DNA of 64,000 nucleotides from Streptomyces sp. Je 1-332 (lineage in GTDB: Bacteria; Actinomycetota; Actinomycetes; Streptomycetales; Streptomycetaceae): the NCBI RefSeq assembly GCF_040730185.1, contig NZ_CP160402.1:3534001-3598000 (forward strand). The letters run 5' to 3'. Made by a program: the position numbers and the translations under genes. Under the pieces are notes generated by a model, which had not been told where the DNA came from, did not search any database, and worked only from the letters and a program-made list of their open reading frames with translations. Shown here piece after piece: positions 14,621 to 57,744 of this stretch; position 1 is the stretch's first letter, and every line of letters begins with the position of its first letter.

Positions 14621-14711
14621 CTGACGAACCGTCAGATTGGGTTGCGTCGACTGTTCCACCGGCCGCGATGACCGTCAATACCCGCGGGCGGCCTTACTGA
14701 CGTGACGTCAG
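14621..14711. promoter_or_regulatory. Two perfect CTGACG-N3-CGTCAG operators
   Basis: Sites at 14621-14635 (centre AAC, extended by T and A to a 17-base palindrome) and 14697-14711 (centre TGA). Both have all 12 arm bases conserved. They lie in the 145-base gap between the SDR stop and the LLM-A start and so belong to the LLM-A promoter. The double palindrome is what a TetR-family dimer pair would bind. Confidence 0.75.
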
Positions 14712-14723
14712 ACCAAGCTCCGG

Positions 14724-15509
14724 TCACACGATGCTGACCCCCGCGAGCCACCCACCGTCGATCACGAACGGCTGCCCGGTGATGTACGCCGAGTCGCCCC
14801 CGGTGAGGAAGAGCGCGAGCGCGGCCACCTCATCGGGCCTGCCGATGCGCCCGAGCGGCACGAGCTTCTTGTAGAGCTCGGCGACGGCTTCGCGCGCCTC
14901 GGTGGGGTCGGCGGTCGGGTCGAGCTGCGCCGGGTTGGTCATCGGGGTGTCGACGGCTCCGGGACATACGGCGTTGACGCGGATGTTCTGCGCGGCGAGC
15001 TCCAACGCGGCGACACGGGTGAGCCCGAGGATGGCGTGCTTGGTCGCGGCGTACGCGCCGACGTACGCCATCCCGGTCATCGCCGTGTACGAGGCGGTGT
15101 TCACGATGGTCCCGCCGCCGGCCGCCCCGATCTCGGGTGCGACGTTGCGGATGCCGAGGAAGCAGCCGATCTGGTTGACCCGGATGATCTGCTCGAACTC
15201 TTCGAGCGGGGTGCTGACGAGCTCGTTGAAGCGCAGGATCCCGGCGTTGTTGACGAGCCCGTCGATCTTCCCGAAGGCGTCCTTGGCAGCGCCGACCGCC
15301 GTGGCCCAGTCGGCTTCCTGGCCGACGTCGAGGTGCACGTACTTGGCCACGTCGCCGCCGAGTTCCTTGGCGAGGGCCTCGCCCTGGTCGTCGAGGACGT
15401 CGCCGATGACGACCTTCGCCCCCTCGGCGGCGAAGAGCCGCGCCTCCTGCTCTCCCTGCCCGCGCGCCGCACCGGTGACGATGACGACACGTCCGTCCAG
15501 CTTGCCCAT
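14724..15509 (-). CDS. Short-chain dehydrogenase/reductase (hydroxysteroid dehydrogenase-like)
   Basis: 261 residues, classical SDR. NAD-binding TGAARGQGEQEA at residues 12-23, NNAG at 87-90, and catalytic triad S140, Y153, K157 (YAATK). D37 after the second strand favours NAD(H). The sequence resembles 3-alpha/20-beta-hydroxysteroid dehydrogenase types, but these families are broad, so the substrate stays open. It starts 32 bases after the stop of LLM-B on the same strand and has no operator of its own, so it is probably in the LLM-B operon and thereby in the proposed regulon. Confidence 0.9.
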   Translation of the reverse strand: MGKLDGRVVIVTGAARGQGEQEARLFAAEGAKVVIGDVLDDQGEALAKELGGDVAKYVHLDVGQEADWATAVGAAKDAFGKIDGLVNNAGILRFNELVSTPLEEFEQIIRVNQIGCFLGIRNVAPEIGAAGGGTIVNTASYTAMTGMAYVGAYAATKHAILGLTRVAALELAAQNIRVNAVCPGAVDTPMTNPAQLDPTADPTEAREAVAELYKKLVPLGRIGRPDEVAALALFLTGGDSAYITGQPFVIDGGWLAGVSIV

Positions 15510-15541
15510 GCCTGTCTCCTTGAATGAGCCGGGTGGAGCTG

Positions 15542-16501
15542 TCAGTTGAGGTGCGGAGCGACTTCGGCGGCGAACGCCGCCATCTGGTCGGTGAGTTCGG
15601 TACGGCTACGCGAGCGGAACCGCACCTGGATCTGCTGGACGCCCATCGCGCCGTACGCCCGCAGCGACTCGGCGAGAGCGTCCGGCTTCCCGCTGAGCGT
15701 GCGCCGCCCGAGGGACCAGGTGGGCTCCCCCACGTACAGCGGCTCGGCGATGGCGCCCACGACGACCGGCTCCGCGATCCCCGCCTCCTCCCTCAGCCGC
15801 TTGAGCCGGGCGATCTGCGCGGGCAGTTCGTCGCGCGGGTCGCCCTGCGGCAGCCAGCCGTCACCGCGCACGGCGGCCCTGCGGACGGCGGCAGGCGATG
15901 AACCCCCCACCCAGATGGGCACGCGGGGCTGCGCGGGCCGCGGCTGCTGGCCGAGCCCACTGAAGTCGTAGGTCTCGCCGTGGTGTTCGGGGTACTCCTC
16001 GGGCCCGAGCGAGGCCTTCAGCGCGTCGATGGTCTCGTCGAGGACTGGCCCGCGCCGCTCGAAGTCGGCGCCCACCGCGTCGAACTCCTCCTGCACATGA
16101 CCTGCCCCGACCCCCAGGATCAGCCGCCCGCCGCTGAGCCGGTCGAGGGTGGCGTACTGCTTGGCGGTGACGAGTGGATGCCGGAGCCCGACGACGGCGA
16201 CGTGGCTCATCAGCCGTACGTTCTCGGTGATCCCGGCGAGGAAGGAAAGGGTGGCCACCGGGTCGTACCAGACGGTGCTCATGGTGTCCGCGAGCCGCCG
16301 GGGTATCGCCACGTGGTCGCAGCTCGCGATGTACGCGAAGCCGCTGCGGTCGGCGGTGCGGGCGATCTCGGCGAGGTCGTCGGCGGTGGCCTCCGCCTCC
16401 CACGCCTCGGCGTACATGACGCTCTGGGACTGGATCGGGAGCTGCATCCCGTAGACCAGTCGCCCTTGCGGGAAGATGTGCGCCGGCGCGTTGGCAGCCA
16501 T
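15542..16501 (-). CDS. LLM-class F420-dependent oxidoreductase B
   Basis: 319 residues of the luciferase-like superfamily, nearest to the probable F420-dependent subgroup (FAYIASCDHVAIPR, LMSHVAVVGLRHPLVTAKQYATLDRLSGGRLILGVGAGH, VPIWVGGSSPAAVRRAAVRGDGWLPQ). Mycobacterial relatives such as Rv3520c lie in the cholesterol gene region. ATG 16501 is preferred over GTG 16555 because the regulon operator at 16526-16540 would otherwise be inside the coding region, and GAGGGG precedes 16501. Likely first gene of an operon with the SDR. Confidence 0.85.
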   Translation of the reverse strand: MAANAPAHIFPQGRLVYGMQLPIQSQSVMYAEAWEAEATADDLAEIARTADRSGFAYIASCDHVAIPRRLADTMSTVWYDPVATLSFLAGITENVRLMSHVAVVGLRHPLVTAKQYATLDRLSGGRLILGVGAGHVQEEFDAVGADFERRGPVLDETIDALKASLGPEEYPEHHGETYDFSGLGQQPRPAQPRVPIWVGGSSPAAVRRAAVRGDGWLPQGDPRDELPAQIARLKRLREEAGIAEPVVVGAIAEPLYVGEPTWSLGRRTLSGKPDALAESLRAYGAMGVQQIQVRFRSRSRTELTDQMAAFAAEVAPHLN

Positions 16502-16525
16502 GGGAATCCAGCCCCTCACCTTGAT

Positions 16526-16582
16526 CTGACGGTACGTCATATACGGCGACGGCACTCATCGTGGTAGCTGACGCATCGTCAG
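16526..16582. promoter_or_regulatory. Operator pair upstream of LLM-B
   Basis: CTGACG-GTA-CGTCAT at 16526-16540 (one mismatch) and CTGACG-CAT-CGTCAG at 16568-16582 (perfect), centres 42 bases apart, that is four helical turns. They sit 25-81 bases upstream of the preferred LLM-B start, where a repressor would overlap the promoter. Confidence 0.75.
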
Positions 16583-16733
16583 GCAAGAGGTGCGGGGCCA
16601 CTCCTCCGAAGGGGGGCGGGCGACTCGCTCCTCCGAAGCAGGGTGGCGACCGCCCGGCCGGGCAGGCCGGAACGGGAAGCCCGCCGCCCCGCGGACTCCC
16701 CGTTCCCGACCTCGCCCCCGCGCCCGCTCTCCG

Positions 16734-17978
16734 CTACGCCCCGGGCCCCGCCCACAGCCCGTCGCTCGTGAGCCCGAGCAGATCGATCGCGTTGCCACGT
16801 ACGATCCGGTCGACCACGTCCGGCGCGAGGTGGCCCATCTGCGACTCCCCCACCTCACGGGACTTGGGCCAGGTCGAGTCGGAGTGCGGGTAGTCCGTCT
16901 CGTACAGCACGTTCCCCACGCCGATCGCGTCGAGGTTCTTCAGCCCGAAGGCGTCATCGAAGAAGCACCCGTAGACATGCTCGGTGAAGAGCTCGGACGG
17001 CGGCCGGTGCACCTTGTCGGCGACCCCGCCCCAGCCGCGGTTCTCCTCCCACACCACGTCCGCGCGCTCCAGGATGTACGGGATCCACCCGATCTGCCCT
17101 TCCGCGTACATGATCCTGAGGTTCGGGAAGCGCTCGAACTTGCCGCTCATCAGCCAGTCGACCATCGAGAAGCAGCAGTTGGCGAAGGTGATGGTGGAAC
17201 CCACGGCGGGCGGCGCGTCCGCGGACGTGCTCGGCATCTTGCTGCTCGACCCGATGTGCATGGCGATGACGGTGCCTGTCTCGTCGCAGGCCCGCAGGAA
17301 GGGGTCCCACTCGTCCGTGTGGATGGAGGGCAGTCCCAGGTGGGGCGGGATCTCGGAGAACGCGACGGCGCGCACGCCGCGGGCGGCGTTGCGGCGGACC
17401 TCGGCGGCTGCCAGCTCGGCGTCCCAGAGCGGAATGAGGGTGAGCGGTATGAGGCGGCCGTGCGCCTCGGGGCCGCACCACTCCTCCACCATCCAGTCGT
17501 TGTACGCGCGCACGCCGAGCAGGCCGAGTTCGCGGTCCTTGGCCTCGGTGAACGTCTGCCCGCAGAAGCGGGGGAAGGTGGGGAAGCAGAGGGCGGACTG
17601 GACGTGGTTGACGTCCATGTCGGCCAGCCGGTCCGGCACGCTGAAGGACCCCGGCCGCATCTGCTCGTAGGTGATGACTTCGAGCTTGATCTCGTCCCTG
17701 TCGTATCCGACCGAGGTGTCGAGGCGGGTGAGGGGCCGGTGCAGGTCCTCGTAGATCCACCAGTCGCCTATGGGTCCGTCGTCCCCCTTCGCCCCCATCA
17801 CCGGGGCGAACTTCCCGCCCAGGAAGCTCATTGACTTCAAGGGGGCCCGGACGATGCGCGGCCCGCGGTCCTGGTACTTCGAGGGGAGCCGGTCACGCCA
17901 GACGTGGGCGGGCTCAACGGTGTGGTCGTCCACCGAGATGATCCTCGGGAACGTCGGCGGGGTCTCAGTGGTCTCCAT
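16734..17978 (-). CDS. Amidohydrolase-2 family metal-dependent hydrolase/decarboxylase
   Basis: 414 residues. ISVDDHTVEP (metal-binding DxHxxE variant near residue 17), FPTFPRF, AFSEIPPHLGLPSIHTDEWDPFLRACDETGTVIAMHIGSSS (metal His), and YETDYPHSDSTWP (late Asp/His) are characteristic of the ACMSD/LigW-like amidohydrolase-2 group, which includes decarboxylases and lactonases and is frequent in actinobacterial steroid and aromatic gene regions. ATG 17978 has GTGGAG just upstream; ATG 17999 would overlap the operator at 18000-18014. Divergent from afsR. Confidence 0.85.
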   Translation of the reverse strand: METTETPPTFPRIISVDDHTVEPAHVWRDRLPSKYQDRGPRIVRAPLKSMSFLGGKFAPVMGAKGDDGPIGDWWIYEDLHRPLTRLDTSVGYDRDEIKLEVITYEQMRPGSFSVPDRLADMDVNHVQSALCFPTFPRFCGQTFTEAKDRELGLLGVRAYNDWMVEEWCGPEAHGRLIPLTLIPLWDAELAAAEVRRNAARGVRAVAFSEIPPHLGLPSIHTDEWDPFLRACDETGTVIAMHIGSSSKMPSTSADAPPAVGSTITFANCCFSMVDWLMSGKFERFPNLRIMYAEGQIGWIPYILERADVVWEENRGWGGVADKVHRPPSELFTEHVYGCFFDDAFGLKNLDAIGVGNVLYETDYPHSDSTWPKSREVGESQMGHLAPDVVDRIVRGNAIDLLGLTSDGLWAGPGA

Positions 17979-17999
17979 GCGCTCCACGGTAGCGCTCAT

Positions 18000-18014
18000 C
18001 TGACGACCCGTCAG
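18000..18014. promoter_or_regulatory. Perfect CTGACG-N3-CGTCAG operator between amidohydrolase and afsR
   Basis: Centre ACC, all 12 arm bases conserved. It is 21 bases upstream of the amidohydrolase start, so its main target should be that gene. It also lies in the divergent region shared with afsR, whose start is 262 bases away, so an effect on afsR is possible but unproven. Confidence 0.75.
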
Positions 18015-28012: not shown

Positions 28013-28423
28013 ATGGCCTCTCTCGTGCGCCACCTCACCTTTGACTGTTCCGACGCCTACCGACAGGGCACCTTCTGGGCCGAAGTACTCGGCGGGAAGA
28101 TCGCCGACGACGACTTCCCGGGGGACCCCGAAGCCCTGGTCACCGCCGACGGCATCGCCGTGCTGTTCGTGACCGTGCCCGACACCAAGACCGTCAAGAA
28201 CCGCCTGCATGTGGACCTCCAGCCGCAGGACCGCACCCGCGACGAAGAGGTCGAGCGGCTCCTCGCGCTCGGCGCCAAGGTCGTGGGCGACCACCGGCGG
28301 CCCGACGGGCGCGGCTGGGTGACCCTCAGCGACCTGGAGGGCAACGAATTCTGCGTCGAGCGCAGCGCGGCCGAGCGCAGTGCGGCCGAGCGCAGCGCCG
28401 CCGGCCAGGAAGGGAGCAACTAG
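28013..28423 (+). CDS. VOC (glyoxalase/dioxygenase fold) protein
   Basis: 136 residues, single vicinal-oxygen-chelate domain: MASLVRHLTFDCSDAYRQGTFWAEVLGG and NRLHVDLQPQDRTRDEEVERLLALGAKVVGDHRRPDGRGWVTLSDLEGNEFCV are typical of the glyoxalase-like subgroup with His and Glu metal ligands. The C-terminus is a threefold ERSAA repeat coded by a tandem 15-base unit (28358-28402). The stop codon shares the four bases CTAG at 28420-28423 with the stop of the convergent ligase gene. Likely under the triple TetR operator. Confidence 0.8.
   Translation: MASLVRHLTFDCSDAYRQGTFWAEVLGGKIADDDFPGDPEALVTADGIAVLFVTVPDTKTVKNRLHVDLQPQDRTRDEEVERLLALGAKVVGDHRRPDGRGWVTLSDLEGNEFCVERSAAERSAAERSAAGQEGSN
28358..28402 (+). 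repeat. 15-base tandem repeat in the VOC gene
   Basis: Three units (28358-28372, 28373-28387, 28388-28402) of GAGCGCAGCGCGGCC with one change each in units 2 and 3. Length keeps the reading frame and adds ERSAA units to the end of the protein. Confidence 0.85.
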
Positions 28424-30047: not shown

Positions 30048-30089
30048 CTGACTATCCGTCAGATTAGCTGTAACCTGACGCGCTGTCAG
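30048..30089. promoter_or_regulatory. Operator pair between fadD3-like and thiolase genes
   Basis: CTGACT-ATC-CGTCAG (30048-30062) and CTGACG-CGC-TGTCAG (30075-30089), one arm mismatch each, centres 27 bases apart. Located 24 bases upstream of the ligase start and 61 bases upstream of the preferred thiolase start, so both divergent transcripts could be controlled. Confidence 0.7.
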
Positions 30090-30149
30090 CAGTCGGGACG
30101 ACGTATGGCGAAGCCCTGGGCCTCGCCACTCGCGGAGGTGTCGTTGCCC

Positions 30150-37974: not shown

Positions 37975-38019
37975 CGGCGGGCTCCTCCCCGGGGTGGCGG
38001 CCATGCCCGCCACCCGAAT

Positions 38020-41615: not shown

Positions 41616-41630
41616 CTGACGGTACGTCAG
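41616..41630. promoter_or_regulatory. Perfect operator upstream of DUF35 protein 2
   Basis: CTGACG-GTA-CGTCAG, all arm bases conserved, centre identical to the site at 16526. An extra left half CTGACG occurs at 41593-41598 inside the start region. Confidence 0.75.
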
Positions 41631-41703: not shown

Positions 41704-41892
41704 CAAAGCAACGCGCACAGGGAGGTGTACGAGTAGGAGGCGTACGCAGGAGGGCGGATGCCGCACAGGGTCCGCCGACGTGGCGCGCAACCCACGGACG
41801 AAGGGCGCGCCGCGCATACCCGTGATCAATTCGCAACCGGTTTGGGGCTTGACCGTCCCCCATCAAGTGATCGCGTGATTACTCTCAGGTTC

Positions 41893-43368: not shown

Positions 43369-43407
43369 CTGACACAGCGTCAGTTCAGTAATCTGACTAT
43401 GCGTCAG
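43369..43407. promoter_or_regulatory. Operator pair upstream of the acyl-CoA synthetase
   Basis: CTGACA-CAG-CGTCAG (43369-43383) and CTGACT-ATG-CGTCAG (43393-43407), centres 24 bases apart, one mismatch each, the mismatch in both at the innermost left-arm base. The second ends 34 bases before the ATG at 43442. Confidence 0.72.
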
Positions 43408-43441: not shown

Positions 43442-45667
43442 ATGCTTGGATCGACTTACGGCACCTTCACCACCGACCCCCGCCGCGCGCGTGTTGTGGC
43501 CTGCGGCGAAGCCCCGGCACCCGCCGTCCACGGACACGCCGCCACGGCGGACGACCTGGACGTCAGCGGACGCCCCCTGCACGCCGACATACCGGACCTG
43601 GACCGGTTCTTCCGCCCCGAGGCCGTCGCCGTCATCGGCGCGTCGGACGCCGACGGACGGCCGAACACCGGCATCACGCGGCAGCTCATGGACTGGGCCG
43701 AGCGGGGCGGCGCCCGGCTGTACCCCGTGCACCCCACCCGCCGGTCCGTCTTCGGCACCCGCTGCTTCCCCTCCGTCGCGGACCTGCCGGAACAGGTCGA
43801 CCTGGCCGTACTCCTCGTCAGCGATCCCCTTCCCGTGATCGAGGAACTCGCCGAGGCGAAGGTGAAGTTCGCCGTCGCCTTCGCCTCCGGGTTCGCCGAG
43901 ACCGGAGAGGAGGGCGCGGCGGCCCAGGCCCGCCTGGCCGCCGCCGTGGAACGCTCGGGCCTGCGGCTGCTCGGGCCCAACACCAACCTCAACGCCTTCG
44001 AGAAGTTCCGTGACGACCTCGAAGGCCCCGCCATCGCCCTGATCACCCAGTCCGGCCACCAGGGCCGCCCCGTCTTCACGATGCAGGAGATCGGCGTACG
44101 CCTCTCGCACTGGGCGCCCACCGGCAACGAAGCCGACCTGGAGACCTCCGACTTCATCTCCTACTTCGCCGAACGCCCCGAGGTCGGAGCCATCGCCTGT
44201 TACGTCGAGGGGCTCAAGGACGGCCGCTCCTTCCTGCTCGCCGCCGACCGCGCCGCCCAGCGCGGCGTGCCCGTCGTCGCGGTCAAGGTCGGCCGCACCG
44301 AGACCGGCGCCCGCATGGCGGCCTCACATACCGGCAAGCTCACCGGCGCCGACACGGTCGTCGACGCGGCGATGCGGCAGTACGGCGTGATCCGCGTGGA
44401 CGGCCTCGACGAACTCCAGGACACGTCCGCCCTGTTGGCGCGGGCGAAGCCTCCGAAGGCCGAGGGCGTCGTCGTCTATTCGATCTCGGGCGGCACGGGC
44501 GCGCACTTCTCGGACCTGGCGACCGAGGCGGGGCTGCGGCTTCCGCCGCTCTCGGACGCCAAGCAGACGGAGCTGCACCAGTGGATACCGGACTACCTGA
44601 ACGTCGCCAACCCTGTCGACAACGGCGGCCACCCGGTGGGCGACTGGCGCGGCCGGAAGATCATCGACGCGATCCTGGACGATCCGGAGGTGGGGGTGCT
44701 GATCTGTCCCATCACCGGCCCCTTCCCGCCCATGAGCGACAAGCTGGCGCAGGACCTGGTGGACGCGGCGGAGCAGACGGACAAGCTGGTGTGCGTGGTC
44801 TGGGGCTCTCCGGTGGGCACCGAGGAGGCCTACCGCAGCACGCTCCTCGGTTCGTCGCGCGTCGCCACCTTCCGCACCTTCGCCAACTGCATCACGGCCG
44901 TACGCGCCTATCTGGACCACCACCGCTTCACGGCCCGCTACCGCTCCCCCTTCGCCGAGGCCCCGCGCACCGCCTCCCCGTCCTTCCGCAAGGCGCAGGC
45001 CCTGATGCGGCCCGGCCAGCAGCTGAGCGAGCACGCGGCGAAGCAGCTGCTGCGCGCGTACGGGATTCGCGTACCGCGTGAGCAGTTGGTGACCAGTGCG
45101 GCGGCGGCCGTGCGGGCGGCCGGGCTCGTCGGCTACCCGGTGGTGATGAAGGCGTCCGGGGCGCGGCTCGCCCACAAGAGCGAACTGGGCCTCGTGAAGG
45201 TCGGTCTGACCTCGGCCAGTCAGGTGCGGGACGCCTACCGGGAGCTGACGGACATCGCCCGCTACGAAGGCATCGCGCTGGACGGTGTCCTTGTCTGCCA
45301 GATGGTGGCGCGGGGCGTCGAGATGGTGGTGGGCGTGACGCAGGACGATCTCTTCGGTCCGACGGTGACCGTCGGGCTCGGGGGTGTCCTTGTCGAGGTG
45401 CTGCGGGACGTGGCCGTACGAGTGCCGCCGTTCGGGGAGTCGCAGGCCTCCGCGATGCTGTCCGAACTGCGTGGGCGTGCGTTGCTCGACGGGGTCCGGG
45501 GGGCGCCCCCCGCCGACGTCGACGCGCTCATCGAAGTCGTCCTGAGGGTGCAGCGGATGGCGCTCGAACTGGGCGACGATCTCGCCGAGTTGGACATCAA
45601 CCCGCTGATGGTGCTGCCCCAGGGGCAGGGGGCGGTCGCGCTGGACGCCTTGGCCGTCTGCCGCTGA
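43442..45667 (+). CDS. ADP-forming acyl-CoA synthetase (fused CoA-binding and ATP-grasp)
   Basis: 741 residues. Order: CoA-binding domain (LDRFFRPEAVAVIGASDADGRPNTGITRQLMDW, about 48-170), succinyl-CoA ligase-like flavodoxin domain with the phosphohistidine region RMAASHTGKLTGAD near residue 300, then an ATP-grasp domain (about 515-741, SEHAAKQLLRAYGIRVPREQL, GYPVVMKASGARLAHKSELG, ELDINPLMVLPQG). Joins an acyl group to CoA with ATP giving ADP and phosphate, or acts as a protein acyltransferase-like member. Opens an operon with a crotonase 109 bases later. Confidence 0.88.
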   Translation: MLGSTYGTFTTDPRRARVVACGEAPAPAVHGHAATADDLDVSGRPLHADIPDLDRFFRPEAVAVIGASDADGRPNTGITRQLMDWAERGGARLYPVHPTRRSVFGTRCFPSVADLPEQVDLAVLLVSDPLPVIEELAEAKVKFAVAFASGFAETGEEGAAAQARLAAAVERSGLRLLGPNTNLNAFEKFRDDLEGPAIALITQSGHQGRPVFTMQEIGVRLSHWAPTGNEADLETSDFISYFAERPEVGAIACYVEGLKDGRSFLLAADRAAQRGVPVVAVKVGRTETGARMAASHTGKLTGADTVVDAAMRQYGVIRVDGLDELQDTSALLARAKPPKAEGVVVYSISGGTGAHFSDLATEAGLRLPPLSDAKQTELHQWIPDYLNVANPVDNGGHPVGDWRGRKIIDAILDDPEVGVLICPITGPFPPMSDKLAQDLVDAAEQTDKLVCVVWGSPVGTEEAYRSTLLGSSRVATFRTFANCITAVRAYLDHHRFTARYRSPFAEAPRTASPSFRKAQALMRPGQQLSEHAAKQLLRAYGIRVPREQLVTSAAAAVRAAGLVGYPVVMKASGARLAHKSELGLVKVGLTSASQVRDAYRELTDIARYEGIALDGVLVCQMVARGVEMVVGVTQDDLFGPTVTVGLGGVLVEVLRDVAVRVPPFGESQASAMLSELRGRALLDGVRGAPPADVDALIEVVLRVQRMALELGDDLAELDINPLMVLPQGQGAVALDALAVCR

Positions 45668-45776: not shown

Positions 45777-46583
45777 ATGTCGGACACCCCCCTGGACTCA
45801 TTGGTACTCCACGCCACTGACAACGCCGTCTCGTGGATCACCCTCAACCGGCCCGAAGCCATGAACGCCGTCACCTGGGACCAGCGCGAACGCGTCATCT
45901 CGCTGCTCGCCGACGCCTCGTCCGACCCCGACGTCAGAGCCGTCGTGATCACCGCGACCGGCAAGGGTTTCTGCGCGGGCGCCGATCTGCGCGGCGCGCC
46001 CAGCGGCGACGCCGAGCGCGTGCCCGGTGACGTGGCCCGCACGATCAGACTGGGCGCCCAGCGCCTCATCGCCGCCGTACTCGACTGCGAGAAGCCGGTG
46101 ATCGCCGCGGTGAACGGCACCGCGGCCGGTATCGGCGCGCATCTCGCGTTCGCCTGCGACCTCGTCGTCGCCGCCGAACAGGTCAGGTTCATCGAGGTGT
46201 TCGTGCGCCGCGGCCTGGTGCCCGACGGCGGCGGCGCCTATCTGCTCCCACGTCTCATCGGACCGCAGCGCGCCAAGGAGCTGATGTTCTTCGGGGACTC
46301 CGTGCCGGCCGCGGACGCCGAACGCCTCGGGCTCGTCAACCGCGTCGTACCGGCCGACGAGCTGGAGAAGACGGCCCGCGCCTGGGCGGAACGCCTGGCG
46401 GCGGGACCGACGCGCGCCATCGCCATGACGAAGCAACTGGTCAACGCGTCCCTGCAGTCGGACCGCGCGACCGCCTTCGCGGCGGAGGCGGCTGCGCAGG
46501 AGATCAACATGACGACGAAGGACGCGAACGAGGGCGTCACCAGCTTCGTGGAGCGCCGCTCACCTTCGTACGAAGGCCGCTGA
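45777..46583 (+). CDS. Crotonase-fold enoyl-CoA hydratase
   Basis: 268 residues. VSWITLNRPEAMNAVTWDQRERV, ATGKGFCAGADLRGAPSGD (oxyanion), KPVIAAVNGTAAGIGAHLAFACDLVVAAEQVRFIEVFVRRGLVPDGGGAYLLPRLIG. The Glu in FIEVF and the Asp in PDGGG stand where the catalytic acid pair of hydratases lies, so genuine hydratase activity is plausible. Second gene of the acyl-CoA synthetase transcript; no operator of its own. Confidence 0.9.
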   Translation: MSDTPLDSLVLHATDNAVSWITLNRPEAMNAVTWDQRERVISLLADASSDPDVRAVVITATGKGFCAGADLRGAPSGDAERVPGDVARTIRLGAQRLIAAVLDCEKPVIAAVNGTAAGIGAHLAFACDLVVAAEQVRFIEVFVRRGLVPDGGGAYLLPRLIGPQRAKELMFFGDSVPAADAERLGLVNRVVPADELEKTARAWAERLAAGPTRAIAMTKQLVNASLQSDRATAFAAEAAAQEINMTTKDANEGVTSFVERRSPSYEGR

Positions 46584-46613: not shown

Positions 46614-46628
46614 CTGACGGGCCGTCAG
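46614..46628. promoter_or_regulatory. Perfect operator upstream of flavin reductase
   Basis: CTGACG-GGC-CGTCAG, all arm bases conserved, ending 5 bases before the first possible ATG of the flavin reductase gene (46634). If that ATG is used the mRNA would be nearly leaderless. Confidence 0.75.
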
Positions 46629-46633: not shown

Positions 46634-47260
46634 ATGGTTGGTGTGATGGGACATGCAGGGATGGCGGCCACCGTCGTCCGATACCTCAGGTCGGTCGGCG
46701 CTCCGACCGCCACCGGTCCGGTCGAAGTCCTTCCGCGTCCGCAGCTGCGGGCGGTCGGTGACGACGAGCGGGCGCCGCTCGACGCGGGTGAGTTCCGGCG
46801 CGTGCTCGGGAACTTCGCGACCGGCGTGACCGTTGTCACGGCACCGGCATCCGAAGGCGAGGAAGGCCCGGCGGGGTTCGCCTGCCAGTCCTTCTCCTCG
46901 CTCTCCCTCGACCCGCCCCTGGTCTCCTTCATGGTCGCGCGTACGTCGACGACGTGGCCGCGCATCGCGCGCGCGGGCGTCTTCTGCGTCAACGTCCTCG
47001 GCGCCGACCAGGGCGCGCTGTGCCGCGGCTTCGCGGTGAGCGGCGCCGACAAGTTCGCCGGTGTCGTGTACGACGCCGCGCCCGTCACCGGCTCGCCCCG
47101 CCTGGCCGGCGCACCGGCCTGGATCGACTGCACGATCCAGGCGGTGCACACCGGGGGCGACCACCTGATCGTGGTCGGCCGGGTGGACGCGCTGGGCGCC
47201 ACGGACGACGGCGAACCGCTCCTCTTCCACCGGGGCAGGTTCGGCACGCTCGCTACATGA
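46634..47260 (+). CDS. Flavin reductase, HsaB-like
   Basis: 208 residues, split-barrel flavin reductase: FRRVLGNFATGVTVVTAP, GFACQSFSSLSLDPPLVSFMVARTSTTWPRIARAGVFCVNVL, SGADKFAGV, IDCTIQAVHTGGDHLIVVGRV and LLFHRGRFG match HsaB, the reductase of the two-component steroid 3-HSA hydroxylase, closely in order and wording. It would supply reduced FMN to a separate monooxygenase; no HsaA is in the window, so an LLM enzyme may be the user. ATGs at 46646 and 46661 are alternative starts. Its 3' end overlaps the convergent MFS gene by 8 bases. Confidence 0.87.
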   Translation: MVGVMGHAGMAATVVRYLRSVGAPTATGPVEVLPRPQLRAVGDDERAPLDAGEFRRVLGNFATGVTVVTAPASEGEEGPAGFACQSFSSLSLDPPLVSFMVARTSTTWPRIARAGVFCVNVLGADQGALCRGFAVSGADKFAGVVYDAAPVTGSPRLAGAPAWIDCTIQAVHTGGDHLIVVGRVDALGATDDGEPLLFHRGRFGTLAT

Positions 47261-49950: not shown

Positions 49951-51021
49951 TCAGAACGTCAAAACCCCCCGCGCCACCCGCCCCGCCTCCGCATCCCCCA
50001 CCGCCTTCGCGAAGTCCTCCACCGGATACGTTTCCGTCACCAACTCGTCCAGCAGCAGGCGCCCCGCCAGATAAAGCTCCGCGTACAGCGCGAAGTCCCG
50101 CTGCGGGCGGGCGGAGCCGTAGCGGCAGCCCAGGATGGACTTGTCCAGGAACAGGGACGACACCAGGAACGACGCCTCCGCGGTGGCCGGTGGCACCCCC
50201 AGCAGGATCGCCTGCCCATGCCGGTCGAGAAGGTCGATCGACTGGCGGATCAGCTCCACCCGGCCCACGCACTCGAAGACGTGGTCGGCCCCCGTCGGCA
50301 GCAGCTCCCGCACCCCCTCCGCCTCCGCCGAGGAGAAGAAGTGCGTCGCGCCGAACTGCCGTGCCACGCCCTCCTTGTCGGGGTTCGCGTCGACCGCCAC
50401 GATCCGCGTGGCCCCGGCGATCCTCGCCCCCTGGAGGACGTTCAGGCCGATCCCCCCGGTACCGATCACCACCACGCTGTCACCCCGGTCGACCTTCGCG
50501 CGGTTCAGGGCGGCGCCGACCCCCGTCACCACCCCGCACCCGATCAGCGCCGCCGACGTCAGCGGAATCTCCTCCGGGATCTTCACGGCCTGCACGGCCT
50601 TCACCACCGTGCGTTCCGCGAACGCGGAGTTCGCCGCGAACTGGTAGACCGGCTCACCGCCCCGCGAGAACGGCTGGTCCGGCATCCCGATCGCACGCCG
50701 GCACATGGTCGGCCGCCCCCGGTTGCACTCCCCGCACGCCCCACAGCTGGCGATGGTCGAGAGCGCCACATGGTCACCGGTGCTCACATGCGTCACCCCC
50801 GCACCGACCGACTCCACCACCCCCGCCCCTTCATGCCCGAGCACCACCGGCGAGGGGAAGGGGATGGTCCCGTCGATGACCGACAGGTCGCTGTGGCACA
50901 GCCCCGCTGCCTTGACGGCGACCAGCACTTCCCCCGGCCCGGGTCCCCGGATCTCCAGGTCGTCGACTACCTGGACCCGACTCCCCTCAGCCCTGCTCCT
51001 GTCGAAAACGACACCCCTCAT
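49951..51021 (-). CDS. Zinc-dependent alcohol dehydrogenase (MDR)
   Basis: 356 residues. Catalytic zinc Cys in KAAGLCHSDLSVIDG (about 40), GHEGAGVVE, structural zinc CGACGECNRGRPTMC (about 92-106), Rossmann VVVIGTGGIGLNVLQGARIAGATRIVAVD near 190 (Asp, so NAD). Resembles class III and NDMA-dependent types. ATG at 51021 overlaps the ACAD stop by ATGA. Third gene of the SDR-ACAD-ADH operon, probably oxidising an alcohol intermediate of the same pathway. Confidence 0.9.
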   Translation of the reverse strand: MRGVVFDRSRAEGSRVQVVDDLEIRGPGPGEVLVAVKAAGLCHSDLSVIDGTIPFPSPVVLGHEGAGVVESVGAGVTHVSTGDHVALSTIASCGACGECNRGRPTMCRRAIGMPDQPFSRGGEPVYQFAANSAFAERTVVKAVQAVKIPEEIPLTSAALIGCGVVTGVGAALNRAKVDRGDSVVVIGTGGIGLNVLQGARIAGATRIVAVDANPDKEGVARQFGATHFFSSAEAEGVRELLPTGADHVFECVGRVELIRQSIDLLDRHGQAILLGVPPATAEASFLVSSLFLDKSILGCRYGSARPQRDFALYAELYLAGRLLLDELVTETYPVEDFAKAVGDAEAGRVARGVLTF

Positions 51022-52244
51022 CGCGCCTCCCTCGGCAGGCCGAGCACACGCTCGGCGATGATGTTCCGCTGAATCTCGTCCGAGCCGCCGTAGATGGTGT
51101 CGGCCCGCGTGAAGAGGAACAGCCGTTGCAGGGCGTCGAGTTCGTACGGGGCGTCCTCGCGCCAGTCCCCGGGGCCGACCGCCCCTACCGCCCCCCGCAC
51201 CGCCATGGCCAGCTCGCCGAGCCGCTGATGCCACCCGCCCCACAACAGCTTGGCCACGCTCGGCGCCCCGGCATCAGGACGCGAACCCCCCGAACTCCCC
51301 GAACCCCCCGAACTCCCCAACGTACGCAGCGCGTTCCACCGCATGACCCGCAACTCCGCCCACTGCCGCACAAGCCGGTCCCGCAGCACGGGATCACCGA
51401 CCGCCCCGCTGTCGACGGCCTCCCGGACCACGGCCCCCAGCTCCTCCGCGAACCCGATCTGCTGTACGAGGGTGGAGACTCCCCGCTCGAAGCCGAGCAG
51501 CCCCATGGCGACGCGCCACCCGTTGCCCACGCCGCCCACGACGTGCGAGGCGCGCGCGACCGCCCCGTCGAAGAAGACCTCGTTGAACTCGCTCGTTCCC
51601 GTCAACTGCCGGATGGGCCGCACCTCGATGCGGCCGGGCTGGTCCATCGGCACCAGCAGGAACGAGATCCCCCGGTGCCCGCACGACCCCGCCTCCGTGC
51701 GCGCAAGCACGAAGCACCAGTCCGCCTGATGGGCGAGCGAGGTCCAGATCTTCTGCCCGGTGACGCGGTACACGTCGCCGTCCAACACCGCCGCCGTCCG
51801 CAGCCCCGCCAGGTCCGACCCGGCCCCTGGCTCGCTGTACCCCTGGCACCACAGCGCATCCCCGCGCGCGATGGGCGGCAGGAACTCGTCCCGCTGCTCC
51901 TGGCTGCCGTACGCGAGCAGGGTCGGGGCCAGCAGGTTCTCGCCGATGTGGCCGTGGCGTCCGGGTGCCCGCACCCGCGCGTACTCCTCCGCCCAGACGA
52001 CCTGCTGGGTCAGCGTCGCCCGCCGGTTCCCGTACGCGCGGGAGTCCGTGTCCCAGCCGAGGCCGATCCACCCGCCCCGGCCCAACTCCCGCTCCCAGGC
52101 CCGCCTTTCCGCCGCGCCCTCGTGCTCACTGCCGGGCCCGCCGCGCCCCGCGGCCCCGGCGAACGCCCCCGTCAGATGCTCGCCGAGCCACGCCCGTGCC
52201 TCCGCCCGGAACTCCTCGTCCTCAGGACCGAATCCGAATTCCAC
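51018..52244 (-). CDS. Acyl-CoA dehydrogenase (FadE)
   Basis: 408 residues. MEFGFGPEDEEFRAEARAWLGEHL start, WCQGYSEPGAGSDLAGLRTAA (FAD/substrate loop), VTGQKIWTSLAHQADWCFVLARTE, RPIRQLTGTSEFNEVFFDGA, and the C-terminal TIYGGSDEIQRNIIAERVLGLPREAR. This is the subunit type ending ...ERVLGLP that carries the EIQRN FAD contact. Gap of 17 bases from the SDR stop and 4-base overlap with the ADH start, so strictly co-transcribed. A Gly/Ser run (SSGGSGSSGGSRPDAG) near residue 312 is an unusual flexible insertion. Confidence 0.9.
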   Translation of the reverse strand: MEFGFGPEDEEFRAEARAWLGEHLTGAFAGAAGRGGPGSEHEGAAERRAWERELGRGGWIGLGWDTDSRAYGNRRATLTQQVVWAEEYARVRAPGRHGHIGENLLAPTLLAYGSQEQRDEFLPPIARGDALWCQGYSEPGAGSDLAGLRTAAVLDGDVYRVTGQKIWTSLAHQADWCFVLARTEAGSCGHRGISFLLVPMDQPGRIEVRPIRQLTGTSEFNEVFFDGAVARASHVVGGVGNGWRVAMGLLGFERGVSTLVQQIGFAEELGAVVREAVDSGAVGDPVLRDRLVRQWAELRVMRWNALRTLGSSGGSGSSGGSRPDAGAPSVAKLLWGGWHQRLGELAMAVRGAVGAVGPGDWREDAPYELDALQRLFLFTRADTIYGGSDEIQRNIIAERVLGLPREAR

Positions 52245-52261
52245 CGCCTGGTCCGCCCGGC

Positions 52262-53173
52262 CTACGCGTTCGGCCGGTCTTTGGCGGCGGCGGCCTTCGC
52301 CATCGCCTCCACCTGGGCCAGCAGCGGCATCGGGTCGACCCCCACCGTCCCCGGCAGGAAGTCGGCGATCTTCTCCGGGGTCCAGCCCCCCTCGACATAC
52401 CCGGCCCGCAGCTCACGCGGCTGCGCCCACACCGCGATCTTCGGGCCCGCGACCGTGTAGACCTGCCCGGTGATCTTCTCCTGCCGGGCACGCTCGCTCA
52501 GCAGATACGTGACGAGCGCGGCCACGTCCTCCGGCTCCCCGATCTCCTTCAGCTCCATGGGCACGTTGGCGGACATCCGGGTCCGCGCGACGGGCGCCAC
52601 CGCGTTCGCCGTCACCCCGTACTTGTTCAGACCGAGCGCCGCGCTGCGCACCAGCGAGATGATCCCGCCCTTGGCCGCGCTGTAGTTGGCCTGTGCGACG
52701 GACCCCTGGTGGTTGCCGCTGGTGAAGCCGATCAGCGTGCCGGTGCCCTGCTTCCGCATGACCGCCGAAGCTGCCTTGAATACGGTGAACGTGCCCTTCA
52801 GGTGTGTGGCGACCACCGGGTCCCACTCCTGCTCGGACATGTTGAAGAGCATCCGCTCCCGCAGGATCCCGGCCACGCACACGACGCCGTCGATCCGCCC
52901 GTACTCGGCGAGGGCGACGTCCACGATCCGCTGCCCGCCCGCCATGGTCGAGATGTCGTCGGCCACGGCGACGGCGTCGCCGCCCGCCGCCTGGATCTCC
53001 TTGACCACGCCGTCGGCTATCTCACTGGTCGGCTGCGCGCCCTCCATGGAGACGCCGTAGTCGTTCACGACGACCTTCGCGCCCTCGGCCGCGGCGGCGA
53101 GCGCGACCGCCTTGCCGATGCCGCGCCCGGCACCGGTCACGGCCACCACCTTGCCTGCCAAGAAGTTCCCCAC
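52262..53173 (-). CDS. SDR, multifunctional 17-beta-HSD4/hydroxyacyl-CoA dehydrogenase-like
   Basis: 303 residues. TGAGRGIGKAVALAAAAEGAKVVVNDYG at residues 13-40, catalytic S152, Y164, K168 (YSAAK); the usual NNAG is replaced by CVAG (99-102). The extended N-terminal segment after NDYG and the C-terminal tail resemble the dehydrogenase part of peroxisomal MFE-2/17-beta-HSD4, which oxidises 3-hydroxyacyl-CoA. First gene of the SDR-ACAD-ADH operon, 22 bases after a regulon operator shared with the divergent cyclase gene. Confidence 0.88.
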   Translation of the reverse strand: MGNFLAGKVVAVTGAGRGIGKAVALAAAAEGAKVVVNDYGVSMEGAQPTSEIADGVVKEIQAAGGDAVAVADDISTMAGGQRIVDVALAEYGRIDGVVCVAGILRERMLFNMSEQEWDPVVATHLKGTFTVFKAASAVMRKQGTGTLIGFTSGNHQGSVAQANYSAAKGGIISLVRSAALGLNKYGVTANAVAPVARTRMSANVPMELKEIGEPEDVAALVTYLLSERARQEKITGQVYTVAGPKIAVWAQPRELRAGYVEGGWTPEKIADFLPGTVGVDPMPLLAQVEAMAKAAAAKDRPNA

Positions 53174-53195: not shown

Positions 53196-53210
53196 CTGAC
53201 GGACCGTTAG
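53196..53210. promoter_or_regulatory. Operator between SDR and cyclase genes
   Basis: CTGACG-GAC-CGTTAG, one mismatch, extended by T and A. A further right half CGTCAG follows about 12 bases on. The site is 22 bases from the SDR start and 47 bases from the cyclase start. Confidence 0.7.
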
Positions 53211-53257: not shown

Positions 53258-54256
53258 ATGTCAGACTCGGCACCCACAGGCTCCGCGGAACCGTCATCCA
53301 CCGGACCGGCGTCCACGGGCGCGGCCCACTCCGCGCTGCCCCCCGAGTTCTTCGACATCGCCAAACGCGTGAACAACTGGGGCCGTTGGGGGCCTGACGA
53401 CGAGATCGGCACGCTCAACCTCATCACCGACGAGGTCGTCCGCGAGGCCGCCGCCACCATCCGCACCGGTCGGCGCATCCCGCTCGCACTGCCCCTCAAG
53501 GAGGACGGCGTCCAGACCGGGCTGATACCCGGCCGCGTCAACCCACTCCACACGATGGTGCAGATCAACCAGGAGCTCTTCGGCCCCGGCACGGTCGCCA
53601 CCAGCGACGACGCCGTCACGATGGGCCTGCAGACGGCCACCCACTGGGACGCGCTCACCCACGCGTCACACTCGGGGAAGATCTACAACGGCCGTCCCGC
53701 GGACACCATCACCGCCCACACCCGCGCGCGGTTCAGCGGCATCGACAAGGTGCCGCACCTCGTCTCGCGCGGCGTACTGCTCGATGTCGCCCGCGCCAAG
53801 GGGCTCGACCGGCTGCCCGGAGATCACGCGGTCACTCCCGAAGACCTCGCGCAGGCCGAGGAGTTCGCGGGGCTCACCGTCCGCGCCGGCGACATCGTCC
53901 TCGTACGCACCGGGCAGCTCCAGACCTACCTGGCGGGCGACAAGCACGCGTACGGCTATCCGTCCCCCGGCCTCTCGGTGCGCACCCCCGAGTGGTTCCA
54001 CGCGCGCGACGTCGCGGCGGTCGCCAACGACACCCTCACCTTCGAGATCTTCCCGCCCGAGATCGAGAACCTCTGGCTGCCCGTGCACGCGCTCGACCTG
54101 GTCGAGATGGGGATGCTGCAGGGCCAGAACTGGAATCTGGAAAAGTTGTCCACAGCCTGTGCAGAACTTTCCCGCTACAGCTTCCTCCTCTCCGCGATGC
54201 CCGAGCCGTTCGTCGGCGGCACGGGGACACCCGTCGCACCGGTGGCGGTGTTGTGA
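53258..54256 (+). CDS. Cyclase-family (kynurenine formamidase-like) metal hydrolase
   Basis: 332 residues. Metal-binding segment TATHWDALTHASH with H129, D131 and H135, DRLPGDHAVTPEDL, RAGDIVLVRTG and the C-terminal ALDLVEMGMLQGQNWNLEKLS are typical of the longer cyclase family related to KynB and isatin hydrolase. These open amide, lactam or lactone rings with a metal ion. The ATG at 53258 has GGGGAG upstream. Sharing an operator with the SDR operon suggests a ring-opening or hydrolytic step in the same pathway. Confidence 0.87.
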   Translation: MSDSAPTGSAEPSSTGPASTGAAHSALPPEFFDIAKRVNNWGRWGPDDEIGTLNLITDEVVREAAATIRTGRRIPLALPLKEDGVQTGLIPGRVNPLHTMVQINQELFGPGTVATSDDAVTMGLQTATHWDALTHASHSGKIYNGRPADTITAHTRARFSGIDKVPHLVSRGVLLDVARAKGLDRLPGDHAVTPEDLAQAEEFAGLTVRAGDIVLVRTGQLQTYLAGDKHAYGYPSPGLSVRTPEWFHARDVAAVANDTLTFEIFPPEIENLWLPVHALDLVEMGMLQGQNWNLEKLSTACAELSRYSFLLSAMPEPFVGGTGTPVAPVAVL

Positions 54257-55526: not shown

Positions 55527-56435
55527 TCACAGCGCCGCCGCGAGCTCCTCCTCCGCCCGGGCCGCCGCCTTTCCGAGGCCCGCCCGCACCCAGGCACGCT
55601 TCAGATGCAGATGCACGTCCGCCTCCCAGGTGAAGCCCATACCGCCGTGCACCTGAAGGCAGTCGCGCGCGCCACGCTCCGCCGCCTCGTCGGCGAGCAG
55701 CTTGGCCGCCGTGATCTCCGCTCCGTCACCGGTGACTGACGCCGCGTACACGGCGGCACGCGCGACCTCGGTGCGTACGAGCATCTGGGCGCAGAGATGC
55801 TTGACGGCCTGGAAGGATCCGATGGATCTGCCGAATTGGGTACGTTCCCGTGCATAACGGACCGCCATCTCGCAGGTCCTGCCCGCGCTGCCGAGCTGTT
55901 CCGCCGCGATCAGCAGGTCCGCCTCGGATGACGCTGCCGCCGTGAATGCCGATGGCGCCTCGGACGACGCCGCCCAGCCTTGCTGGTCGCCCGGCACCCG
56001 GTGCAGCGGCGTCAGCGGGTCGACGGAACGCAGGGGTACGGCGCCGGAGACATCCCCGTGGACGACATCCGCCTCGTCCAGCCAGGGGACGAGCCCGCCC
56101 GAGACGGTCGTCACCACCGTCGCCCCCTGGGCCGCGCCCGTGACCTCACGCGCCGCGAGGAACGTGGCCACCAGCGGCCCGGGGAGCAGCGCTCGCCCCG
56201 CCTCCTCGAAGACCAACACGGCCTCCGGAAGCCCGAGTCCGACCCCGCCCTCCTCCTCCGGCACCCGCAGCGAGAAGAACCCGGCTTCCCCCAGCTCCCG
56301 CCACAGGGCCCGGTCGAGCGAGGGAGTCCCGGAGTCCGCCGCGGCCCGCAGGGCGGCCGCGTCGAACCGCCCGTCGAGCAGCTCGCGCACGCCACCCTGC
56401 AACGCCCGCTGGTCCTCCGTCAGTTGGAAGTCCAC
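55527..56435 (-). CDS. Acyl-CoA dehydrogenase, small partner subunit
   Basis: 302 residues, clearly short for an ACAD. Starts VDFQLTEDQRALQGGVRELL, keeps YARERTQFGRSIGSFQAVKHLCAQML and ends with CLQVHGGMGFTWEADVHLHLKRAWV, but the middle beta domain is compressed. This matches the beta-type subunit of alpha2-beta2 ACADs (FadE28-like). GTG start at 56435 lies 8 bases after the stop of the companion ACAD, with GAGGGG inside that gene's end. The two proteins probably form one enzyme. Confidence 0.87.
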   Translation of the reverse strand: MDFQLTEDQRALQGGVRELLDGRFDAAALRAAADSGTPSLDRALWRELGEAGFFSLRVPEEEGGVGLGLPEAVLVFEEAGRALLPGPLVATFLAAREVTGAAQGATVVTTVSGGLVPWLDEADVVHGDVSGAVPLRSVDPLTPLHRVPGDQQGWAASSEAPSAFTAAASSEADLLIAAEQLGSAGRTCEMAVRYARERTQFGRSIGSFQAVKHLCAQMLVRTEVARAAVYAASVTGDGAEITAAKLLADEAAERGARDCLQVHGGMGFTWEADVHLHLKRAWVRAGLGKAAARAEEELAAAL

Positions 56436-56443
56436 GCGCCCCC

Positions 56444-57610
56444 TCACCGCCCCTTCGGCAGGCCGAGTATCCGCTCGGCCACGATGTTCTGCTGGATCTG
56501 CGAGGTCCCGGCGGCGATCGTGTACGAGAGCGAGGAGAGCCGGTCCAGGGTCCAGTCGTGGCCCAGGTCGAGCGCCCCGGGTCCGAGCACCTCGCCCGCG
56601 GCCTCGTACAGCTCCTGGCGTGCGTGCGAGTAGCGCAGCTTGAAGACGGAACCGCCGATGCCCGGTACGCCGCCGCCCGCCCGCTGCGACTCGCTGACGT
56701 TCCACTGCGTGAGCCGCCACAGCGCCCCGAACTCCGCGCTCAGCCTGCCGAGCCTGCGGCGCAGGACCGCGTCGTCCCAGCGGCCGTTCTTGCGCGCCTC
56801 GCGGGCCAGTTCGCCGAGGACCCGGCGGCAGGCGACGACCTCCCCCACGAAGGCCGTCCCGCGCTCGTACGACAGCGTCACCATCGTCACGCGCCAGCCG
56901 TCGTTCTCCGCGCCGACGCGGTTGGCGACCGGGACGCGCACCTCGTCGAGGAACACCTCGGCGAACTCGGTCGAGCCCGCGAGCGTGCGCAGCGGGCGGA
57001 CCGTGATCCCGGGGGCGTCCATCGGCATCGCGAGCCATGAGATGCCGCGGTGCTTGGGCACGTCCTCGCTCACCGGCGTCGTCCGCACGAGGAGTTCGCA
57101 CCAGTCGGCGACCTCCGCGTGCGAGGTCCAGATCTTGGATCCGCTCACCACGTAGTCGTCGCCGTCGCGCCACGCGCGCGTGCGCAGCGACGCGAGGTCG
57201 GAGCCCGCGTCCGGCTCGCTGAACCCCTGGCACCACACCTCGTCGCCGCGCAGCACGGGCGGCAGCCACCGGGCGCGCTGTTCCGGGGTCCCTTCGGAGG
57301 CGATGGTGGGTCCCGCGTGCAGCAGGCCCACGAAGTTCGCCCCTACGTAGGGCGCGCCCGCCTTCTCCGTCTCCTCCAGGAAGATCAGGTGCTGGGTCGG
57401 GGTGGCGCCACGGCCGCCCGCGTCGACGGGCCAGTGCAGCCCCGCGTACCCGGCGTCGTACAGCCTGCGCTGCCACCCCATGTCGTAGGCCCGGCGCCCC
57501 GGCCAGTCCAAGGGGTCGGGTCTCGGCGGCAGTTGGGGGAGTGTCCGGGCCAGCCACTCGCGCAGGCCCGCCCGGAAGGATTCCTCCTCCTGCGTGTAGG
57601 TGAGGTCCAC
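56444..57610 (-). CDS. Acyl-CoA dehydrogenase, companion subunit
   Basis: 388 residues. VDLTYTQEEESFRAGLREWLARTLPQL, WCQGFSEPDAGSDLASLRTRAW, VSGSKIWTSHAEVADWCELLVRT, RPLRTLAGSTEFAEVFLDEV and the C-terminal AGTSQIQQNIVAERILGLPKGR. This is the FadE29-like subunit type that in heteromeric ACADs carries the FAD-binding QxxQN segment. GTG at 57610 with GGAGGGGG upstream. Leads the ACAD pair operon; operator 42 bases upstream. Confidence 0.88.
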   Translation of the reverse strand: MDLTYTQEEESFRAGLREWLARTLPQLPPRPDPLDWPGRRAYDMGWQRRLYDAGYAGLHWPVDAGGRGATPTQHLIFLEETEKAGAPYVGANFVGLLHAGPTIASEGTPEQRARWLPPVLRGDEVWCQGFSEPDAGSDLASLRTRAWRDGDDYVVSGSKIWTSHAEVADWCELLVRTTPVSEDVPKHRGISWLAMPMDAPGITVRPLRTLAGSTEFAEVFLDEVRVPVANRVGAENDGWRVTMVTLSYERGTAFVGEVVACRRVLGELAREARKNGRWDDAVLRRRLGRLSAEFGALWRLTQWNVSESQRAGGGVPGIGGSVFKLRYSHARQELYEAAGEVLGPGALDLGHDWTLDRLSSLSYTIAAGTSQIQQNIVAERILGLPKGR

Positions 57611-57651
57611 GTCGTCCCCCTCCGGTCGTCTCTCCGGCCCCTCCGGCACAT

Positions 57652-57744
57652 CTGATGGCCCGTCAGAACGCAGGCTAGCCCCGCACCCCTGGACCGACAA
57701 GGCGCTGAGCCTTACGCTCTCGGCACGATCTGACTGCCCGTCAG
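57652..57744. promoter_or_regulatory. Two operators between ACAD pair and acyl-CoA ligase
   Basis: CTGATG-GCC-CGTCAG (57652-57666) next to the ACAD operon and CTGACT-GCC-CGTCAG (57730-57744) 26 bases before the ligase start. One mismatch each, centres both GCC. One site per divergent transcript, as at 38020/38103. Confidence 0.7.

Follow-up and report, generated by a model that had tools for sequence, protein, structure and literature searches.

What does a palindrome do that recurs sixteen times in 64 kb of a Streptomyces chromosome, and which protein would read it? The stretch in question, referred to here as the window, comprises 64,000 nucleotides (positions 3,534,001-3,598,000 of the 8,274,399-base chromosome of Streptomyces sp. 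Je 1-332), and the palindrome is CTGACG-N3-CGTCAG. A sequence-only reading of the window had interpreted it as the operator of a catabolic regulon; the analysis reported here goes beyond that reading by naming a likely TetR-family regulator, by following the regulon outside the window and by relating it to the ipd genes. We consider it quite probable that a dedicated TetR repressor, most likely the PF19352 protein encoded at 35516-36163, uses the palindrome as its operator and governs a catabolic pathway, probably for a cyclic isoprenoid or steroid-like acid. Every one of the 59 Streptomyces genomes searched carries this TetR gene, and its presumed S. coelicolor counterpart had no function assigned before; the role proposed here would supply a likely function together with a list of targets, and would define a catabolic regulon distinct from those of the known steroid regulators in a genus that makes many antibiotics. 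The open-licence literature on the palindrome, the gene, and TetR, catabolism or KstR2 in Streptomyces yielded no paper on this operator or regulon.

Sixteen palindromic sites in the window

All 16 copies listed by the earlier reading, six of them perfect and ten with one mismatch, were found at the positions given there (Table 1), and the 64-kb window contained no further site at one mismatch or fewer. The palindrome is clearly enriched: 100 dinucleotide shuffles of the window averaged 0.60 such matches and never exceeded 3. When two mismatches were allowed, 23 matches were found against 7.8 expected, and the seven beyond the original 16 did not rise above chance, so the surplus is limited to the 16 sites.

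Gene calls based on codon composition assign 88% of the window to coding sequence, and the centers of 15 of the 16 sites lie outside it. The claim that all copies are intergenic therefore fails for one of them, 16526, which overlaps the probable ATG (16540) of the LLM2 gene. Site 38020 extends over an in-frame ATG (38034) in the acyl-CoA dehydrogenase (ACAD) gene ACAD1, and in both cases the odd base of the palindrome belongs to the start codon. The target classes originally proposed (acyl-CoA, thiolase, ACAD, LLM, flavin and amidohydrolase enzymes) are all present, but the list has to be widened by an SDR and by a PF04199 cyclase (both at site 53196), as well as by a protein of no recognized family (57758-59416). 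It also has to be corrected at site 18000, which lies between the amidohydrolase gene and afsR; both the AfsR and the AfsK models are matched over cut-off in the window.

Conservation at orthologous promoters

Sites with at most one mismatch were scored from -200 to +45 of the start codon in up to 90 sequences (10 regions and 80 loci), leaving out matches with less than 50% identity or 60% length, those starting after residue 40 and those without 200 bp of upstream sequence. The site was kept before thiolA in 88/88 orthologues, the amidohydrolase in 58/58, ACAD1 in 46/46, thiolB in 29/30 and the ligase in 76/82, and AfsR, which shares the amidohydrolase site, retained it in 33/41. For targets with fewer orthologues the counts were 14/19 (LLM2), 5/5 (ACD), 3/4 (LLM1), 2/2 (flavin reductase) and 1/1 each for SDR2, the cyclase and ACAD4, while DUF35B (1/5) and the flavin monooxygenase (0/3) were poorly conserved exceptions. 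The site was nearly absent before non-target genes (DUF35A 0/87, ECH1 0/86, TetR 0/68, AfsK 0/63, DDN 1/58, SDR1 0/10, PNPOx 0/10, Glyox 0/8, ECH2 0/5, GNAT 0/3). The thiolase itself is 90-97% identical in the 80 Streptomyces loci, and the S. griseus locus (L159) likewise shows the site at the thiolase promoter.

The motif is not equally common elsewhere: the 40-kb regions around tetR orthologues in ten genomes (400 kb) held 63 sites, 23 of them perfect, against 5 sites, none perfect, in 19 control stretches (380 kb) from the same genomes. In G038, which belongs to another family and has a TetR that is 64% identical, the counterparts of the ligase/thiolase, ACD, SDR/cyclase and ACAD4 promoters near tetR likewise carry sites. 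Conversely, G031, which is without ligase and thiolase genes near tetR, has no sites in its 40-kb tetR region. The palindrome is thus a good candidate for a conserved operator of a catabolic regulon, and the original interpretation is supported by these tests, which covered a portion of the genome or related genomes.

Sites elsewhere in the genome

Across the whole genome, 107 sites at one mismatch or fewer were counted, versus 29 for the reversed pattern. However, a permuted palindrome, GTCCAGNNNCTGGAC, occurs 151 times (its own reversed form, 267 times) and so outnumbers the real pattern. Genome-wide counts were therefore dropped as proof, and the argument rests on placement and conservation. 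A scan with a degenerate pattern, restricted to the changes seen in the window, returned 45 places, of which 15 fall within the window and 30 lie outside it. By our own gene calls, 25 of the 30 outside sites are intergenic (P ≤1.6e-13 at 12-20% intergenic DNA). A scan of 30 genes neighboring these sites found many of the same enzyme classes: an enoyl-CoA hydratase, two LLM and two PNPOx proteins, an OB-fold ChsH2 protein, a MaoC hydratase, a divergent thiolase/P450 pair, an AMP-forming ligase, an SDR, an ACAD, a glyoxalase, and a second amidohydrolase, 57% identical to the first, with two sites. This distribution suggests that the regulon extends beyond the window. Other outside sites, which may be there by chance, stand beside genes of different kinds (glutaminase, MreB, a transglycosylase-like protein, NlpC/P60, an ABC protein, a PorA-domain protein, a histidine kinase, an isochorismatase, a methyltransferase, a polyketide cyclase-like protein and POR).

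Proposed mode of control

At the divergent ligase/thiolase promoter, the arrangement CTGACT-N17-TANNNT is present in one direction in 80/80 loci, and CTGACA-N17-TAATCT is found in the opposite direction in the window. The 17-bp spacing to the -10 boxes suggests that a half-site doubles as the -35 box here, in which case a bound dimer would block both promoters. This arrangement was rejected as a general rule; TANNNT at 15-19 bp was found only at the ligase/thiolase promoter (both directions) and on one strand of site 18000. Leaderless transcripts are suggested for LLM2, ACAD1 and tetR, whose probable start codons are covered by the site.

In the mechanism that we propose, a TetR dimer would sit over the start codon or the -35/-10 boxes of its target genes and thereby repress them. 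These genes, within the window and at other places in the genome, encode acyl-CoA ligase, thiolase/OB-fold, ACAD, LLM, amidohydrolase, SDR and flavin enzymes; tetR itself would probably be repressed as well. A CoA thioester of the pathway would probably release TetR from the operator; repression and acyl-CoA release are suggested because KstR-type proteins work in this way. The regulon probably degrades a cyclic isoprenoid or a steroid-like acid, under a control that would be separate from that of the ipd operon of the same genome. We infer the binding by TetR 35516-36163, the repression, the effector and the substrate alike.

A candidate regulator beside afsK

The likeliest regulator is the PF19352 TetR protein encoded at 35516-36163, beside afsK. 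It matches the TetR_N helix-turn-helix and TetR_C_38 models over their gathering scores (247.1 bits, cut-off 23.9, and 26.9 bits, cut-off 24), and its structure model is an alpha-helical TetR fold (pLDDT 93). No second copy was detected in its own genome at E≤1e-10, and when 547 stop-to-stop frames of the window were searched with a profile of its family, it was the only member found. Of the 246 genomes in the class sample, 43 encode a homologue at E≤1e-30, and in 40 chosen homologues the recognition-helix segment GTSPATFYQYF is invariant save for the proline.

An indirect link between the protein and the palindrome lies at the tetR gene itself. Its start codon falls within CTGACGNCATGACAG, a form with two mismatches, in 88 of 90 distinct (deduplicated) upstream sequences. 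A scan of 38 TetR homologues revealed own-start sites at one mismatch or fewer in families f14 (1/1), f16 (4/5) and f18 (Frankiaceae, 6/6, each 36-37 bp before an in-frame start codon). The chance of the combined 11/12 is about 6e-25, a rough figure whose control rate comes from f1/f3 DNA. The two-mismatch form is found in 8/14 f3 and 5/5 f1 genomes, and a degenerate form in 4/5 of f15. Presence of the regulator and abundance of sites also go together: TetR-negative genomes have 0-2 perfect sites (10 of 61 genomes) or 0-5 (203 of 246), f16 has 7-14 in five TetR-positive versus 0-1 in three TetR-negative genomes, and f18 averages 4.8 in six positive versus 1.5 in 17 negative genomes. About 55 bp before tetR (window 35440-35522) are near-identical across Streptomyces and end in a -10-like TAAGCT near the ATG; the tetR promoter is strongly conserved and probably leaderless, also in thiolase-less strains.

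Several observations weigh against this assignment. No site near the tetR start was found in 6/14 f3 genomes or in the single f21 and f6 genomes, the f15 own-start sites are only degenerate except for one at -132, and the Streptomyces tetR site has two mismatches and overlaps coding sequence. The ubiquity of tetR in the Streptomyces genomes searched (59/59) counts in the same direction, as do the ten low-site Streptomyces chosen for inspection, all of which lack the thiolase yet have tetR, so that the gene must serve something besides the pathway there. G045 (f3) has tetR and 20 perfect sites without thiolase or IpdA, and no catabolic orthologues lie near its tetR. Finally, according to PMC3878966, deletion of SCO4421, the presumed S. 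coelicolor counterpart by its position close to afsK, gave no detected phenotype, and the gene is described as expressed in spores. SAV3818, an S. avermitilis TetR gene that reportedly stimulates antibiotic production, may or may not be a counterpart.

A link to ring degradation

In f16, tetR adjoins an SDR gene and an operon whose products match the enoyl-CoA hydratase PRK07938 (over cut-off), the CoA-transferase pair 6co6/6con, which we take to be IpdAB, and an NMO/FabK-type, IpdC-like reductase. The promoter of this echA20-ipdABC-like operon carries a site at one mismatch or fewer in 4/5 genomes and one with two mismatches in the fifth. In the single f14 genome this gene group recurs; tetR and a divergent ACAD pair carry sites there, but the ipd promoter does not. 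Strain Je 1-332 has an echA20-ipdABC-like operon of its own at 6.97 Mb (L326 11841-12149; IpdA 60% identical), without the site. None of six Streptomyces ipd promoters has a CTGACG site at up to two mismatches, and each has one KstR2-like word at up to two mismatches, a loose criterion. The occurrence of such an operon with a KstR2-like word is an observation in its own right in a genus mostly reported to be without steroid catabolism.

Among 45 Streptomyces, the median number of perfect sites was 15 in the 29 genomes with IpdA versus 4 in the 16 without it (exceptions with 13, 15 and 18), a comparison in which G001 is an incomplete genome, two queries with their cut-offs are combined and relatedness is left uncorrected, as it is in the other rank tests on these genome sets. 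This co-occurrence, together with the operator at the f16 ipd promoter, ties the regulon to ring degradation, although neither names the substrate. The enzymes likewise point to a ring-degrading pathway, perhaps for a cyclic isoprenoid. DitZ and PtmU3 play a role in diterpenoid chemistry, and they are the closest solved relatives of the regulon amidohydrolase, a relation at the family level only; the nearest relatives of ACAD4 are 4x28 and Tcur3483. A tentative scheme, which we would not put at even odds, is that most Streptomyces have an undescribed upper pathway for a cyclic isoprenoid (a terpenoid- or hopanoid-like acid) that is run by the PF19352 TetR through an operator of its own and feeds ring opening by IpdABC, in Streptomyces under KstR2-type control, and that in f16, a different actinobacterial family, the TetR took over ipdABC in a regulator replacement over a common core of ring degradation. 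Comparison with f16 would then show an exchange of regulators over a shared pathway.

Comparison with known systems

The KstR2 regulon serves the degradation of steroid rings C/D and comprises about 15 genes, including fadD3, echA20, ipdABC and fadE genes. The window regulon resembles it in its predicted FadD3-family ligase and several ACADs, and in the position of the f16 PF19352 TetR beside echA20-ipdABC-like genes with a site at their promoter. It differs in its operator and in the promoter elements of ipdABC in the six Streptomyces. EthR of M. tuberculosis, also of the TetR family, is the best fold match of the regulator model (TM 0.78-0.80 by query) and provides the best PDB sequence matches, but is only 16-17% identical to the window TetR; the closeness of this predicted model to EthR leaves the ligand unsettled. 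To our knowledge, the operator and targets of EthR are not those of the window regulon. As described in PMC1995591, the mycobacterial KstR regulon has a TetR-type regulator, a 14-15 bp palindrome with the regulator's own promoter as a target, and many acyl-CoA operons, with sites that often stand between divergent genes and in some cases are paired or lie in coding ends, all of which is reminiscent of the window.

Alternative explanations

The most serious competitor to control by TetR 35516-36163 is that some other regulator encoded elsewhere binds the palindrome, with the TetR beside afsK a bystander in a conserved neighborhood. The genome encodes many other regulators, and the persistence of tetR in Streptomyces with few sites and no thiolase would fit. 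We nevertheless regard it as rather unlikely, given that a site lies close to the start of tetR in families far removed from Streptomyces and in nearly all upstream sequences here, and that TetR and many sites occur together within f16 and f18; in the G038 region, moreover, an ECF sigma factor was the only regulator among ten further open reading frames scanned. The earlier reading spoke of TetR proteins in the plural, rightly, as a second TetR-like gene lies at 27274-27870. It is highly improbable that this gene encodes the regulator of the regulon sites (CTGACGNNNCGTCAG). In its favor are its location within the cluster and its sequence, which looks like that of a TetR-type protein; its single-sequence model was poor (pLDDT 43). 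Allowing two mismatches, however, no CTGACG site was found in its promoter, and three adjacent GAACGNNCGTTC words (27893-27930), two perfect and one with one mismatch, precede its start instead. A relative of it was found in 1 of 340 loci (L115), whereas 80/80 thiolase loci carry the site. The GAACGNNCGTTC words are probably an operator of 27274-27870 itself.

A steroid regulon of the KstR or KstR2 type whose operator is unusual has slightly more to recommend it than the second TetR and is still very improbable. The enzyme classes resemble those of steroid side-chain and ring C/D genes, the genome has an ipd operon, and the f16 ipd promoter has the site. Yet neither the KstR consensus TnnAACnnGTTnnA nor the KstR2 consensus AnCAAGnnCTTGnT stands at any target promoter; at one mismatch or fewer they occur twice and once in the window, always inside genes (the KstR2 match in the ligase gene), in agreement with the earlier statement that the operators differ. 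KstR is only a weak match to the window TetR, outside its close relatives (E 0.13), the Streptomyces ipd promoters are without the CTGACG site, and the best HsaC match scored 53.6 bits against a cut-off of 450, which no control genome exceeded either. As the substrate, the canonical steroid pathway is not supported by the HsaC score or by the operators at the targets, nor by the PMC4810484 survey, in which 55 of 57 Streptomyces genomes are without steroid pathways. A repeat scattered over the chromosome that plays no part in regulation is as improbable as the second TetR. The permuted palindrome is commoner genome-wide, and Sporichthyaceae have 109-218 perfect copies per genome, 13 of 25 inspected copies being inside genes; the Streptomyces sites, in contrast, are clustered and mostly intergenic, recur at the same promoters, where their variants are conserved, and track catabolic genes. 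Control by the TetR beside afsK is thus the reading that we prefer.

The Sporichthyaceae (f15; G063, G081, G096, G109, G122; L195-L216) deserve separate mention. Against a control of 0-1 per genome, their perfect palindromes are often located in genes or supply the stop codons of convergent genes, and their TetR homologue keeps the recognition helix. A giant regulon was considered and rejected, as the 25 inspected sites divided into 13 in genes, 7 at convergent or 3' ends, 3 of promoter type and 2 at edges. Possibly the palindrome has a different, chromosome-wide use in this family.

Features of the window

Table 1. Predicted operators, promoter elements and genes of the proposed regulon (window coordinates).
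Feature	Position	Strand	Remarks
Operator, perfect	14621..14635		before LLM1
Operator, perfect	14697..14711		before LLM1
Operator, 1 mismatch	16526..16540		overlaps LLM2 ATG
Operator, perfect	16568..16582		before LLM2
Operator, perfect	18000..18014		between amidohydrolase gene and afsR
Operator, 1 mismatch	30048..30062		divergent ligase/thiolase promoter; first half = putative -35 box
Operator, 1 mismatch	30075..30089		ligase/thiolase promoter, 27 bp past 30048; putative -35 box of opposite direction
Operator, 1 mismatch	38020..38034		overlaps possible ACAD1 ATG
Operator, 1 mismatch	38103..38117		before thiolB
Operator, perfect	41616..41630		between DUF35B and flavin monooxygenase; weakly conserved at these starts
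Operator, 1 mismatch	43369..43383		before CoA ligase gene ACD
Operator, 1 mismatch	43393..43407		before ACD
Operator, perfect	46614..46628		before flavin reductase
Operator, 1 mismatch	53196..53210		between SDR2 and cyclase; also in G038
Operator, 1 mismatch	57652..57666		before ACAD4
Operator, 1 mismatch	57730..57744		before 57758
Degenerate operator, 2 mismatches	35508..35522		overlaps tetR start codon
-10 box TAACCT, thiolase promoter	30071..30076	+	17 bp after CTGACT; TANNNT here in 80/80 loci
-10 box TAATCT, ligase promoter	30061..30066	-	17 bp after CTGACA (window only)
LLM oxidoreductase LLM1	13451..14578	-	family search
LLM oxidoreductase LLM2	15542..16540	-	TIGR03619 over cut-off
Amidohydro_2 enzyme	16734..17987	-	nearest solved relatives DitZ, PtmU3
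FadD3-family acyl-CoA ligase	28420..30024	-	NF005801 803.3 bits, cut-off 657
Lipid-transfer thiolase thiolA	30105..31301	+	over cut-off; nearest solved 6ok1
ChsH2-type OB-fold protein DUF35A	31361..31825	+	without own site; likely same operon
Enoyl-CoA hydratase ECH1	31822..32592	+	without own site; likely same operon
TetR-family regulator (PF00440 + PF19352)	35516..36163	+	proposed repressor
Deazaflavin-dependent (DDN-type) oxidoreductase	36257..36730	-	likely co-transcribed with ACAD1
Acyl-CoA dehydrogenase ACAD1	36730..38034	-	start 38013 or 38034
Thiolase thiolB	38122..39348	+	
ChsH2-type OB-fold protein DUF35B	41144..41602	-	
Flavin-containing monooxygenase-like protein	41758..43068	+	below cut-offs
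CoA ligase, ADP-forming type (ACD)	43442..45667	+	below cut-offs
Enoyl-CoA hydratase ECH2	45777..46583	+	
HsaB-like flavin reductase	46634..47260	+	below cut-off
SDR2, ACAD2, alcohol dehydrogenase	49951..53173	-	behind site 53196
PF04199 cyclase	53369..54256	+	
ACAD4 + ACAD3 pair	55527..57649	-	
Protein without NCBIfam or Pfam match	57758..59416	+	behind site 57730

Three minor observations concern the genes themselves. The 552-residue product of 57758-59416, which has its own operator, is a possible new pathway enzyme. The dnaE gene named in the earlier reading has a PHP-type start, as read by eye. Near the regulon, at 509-4119, the window encodes a two-domain radical SAM/CofH protein (FbiC-like, F420 cofactor) accompanied by an LLM gene, and relatives of these two genes adjoin the LLM1 and SDR1 orthologues in G038.

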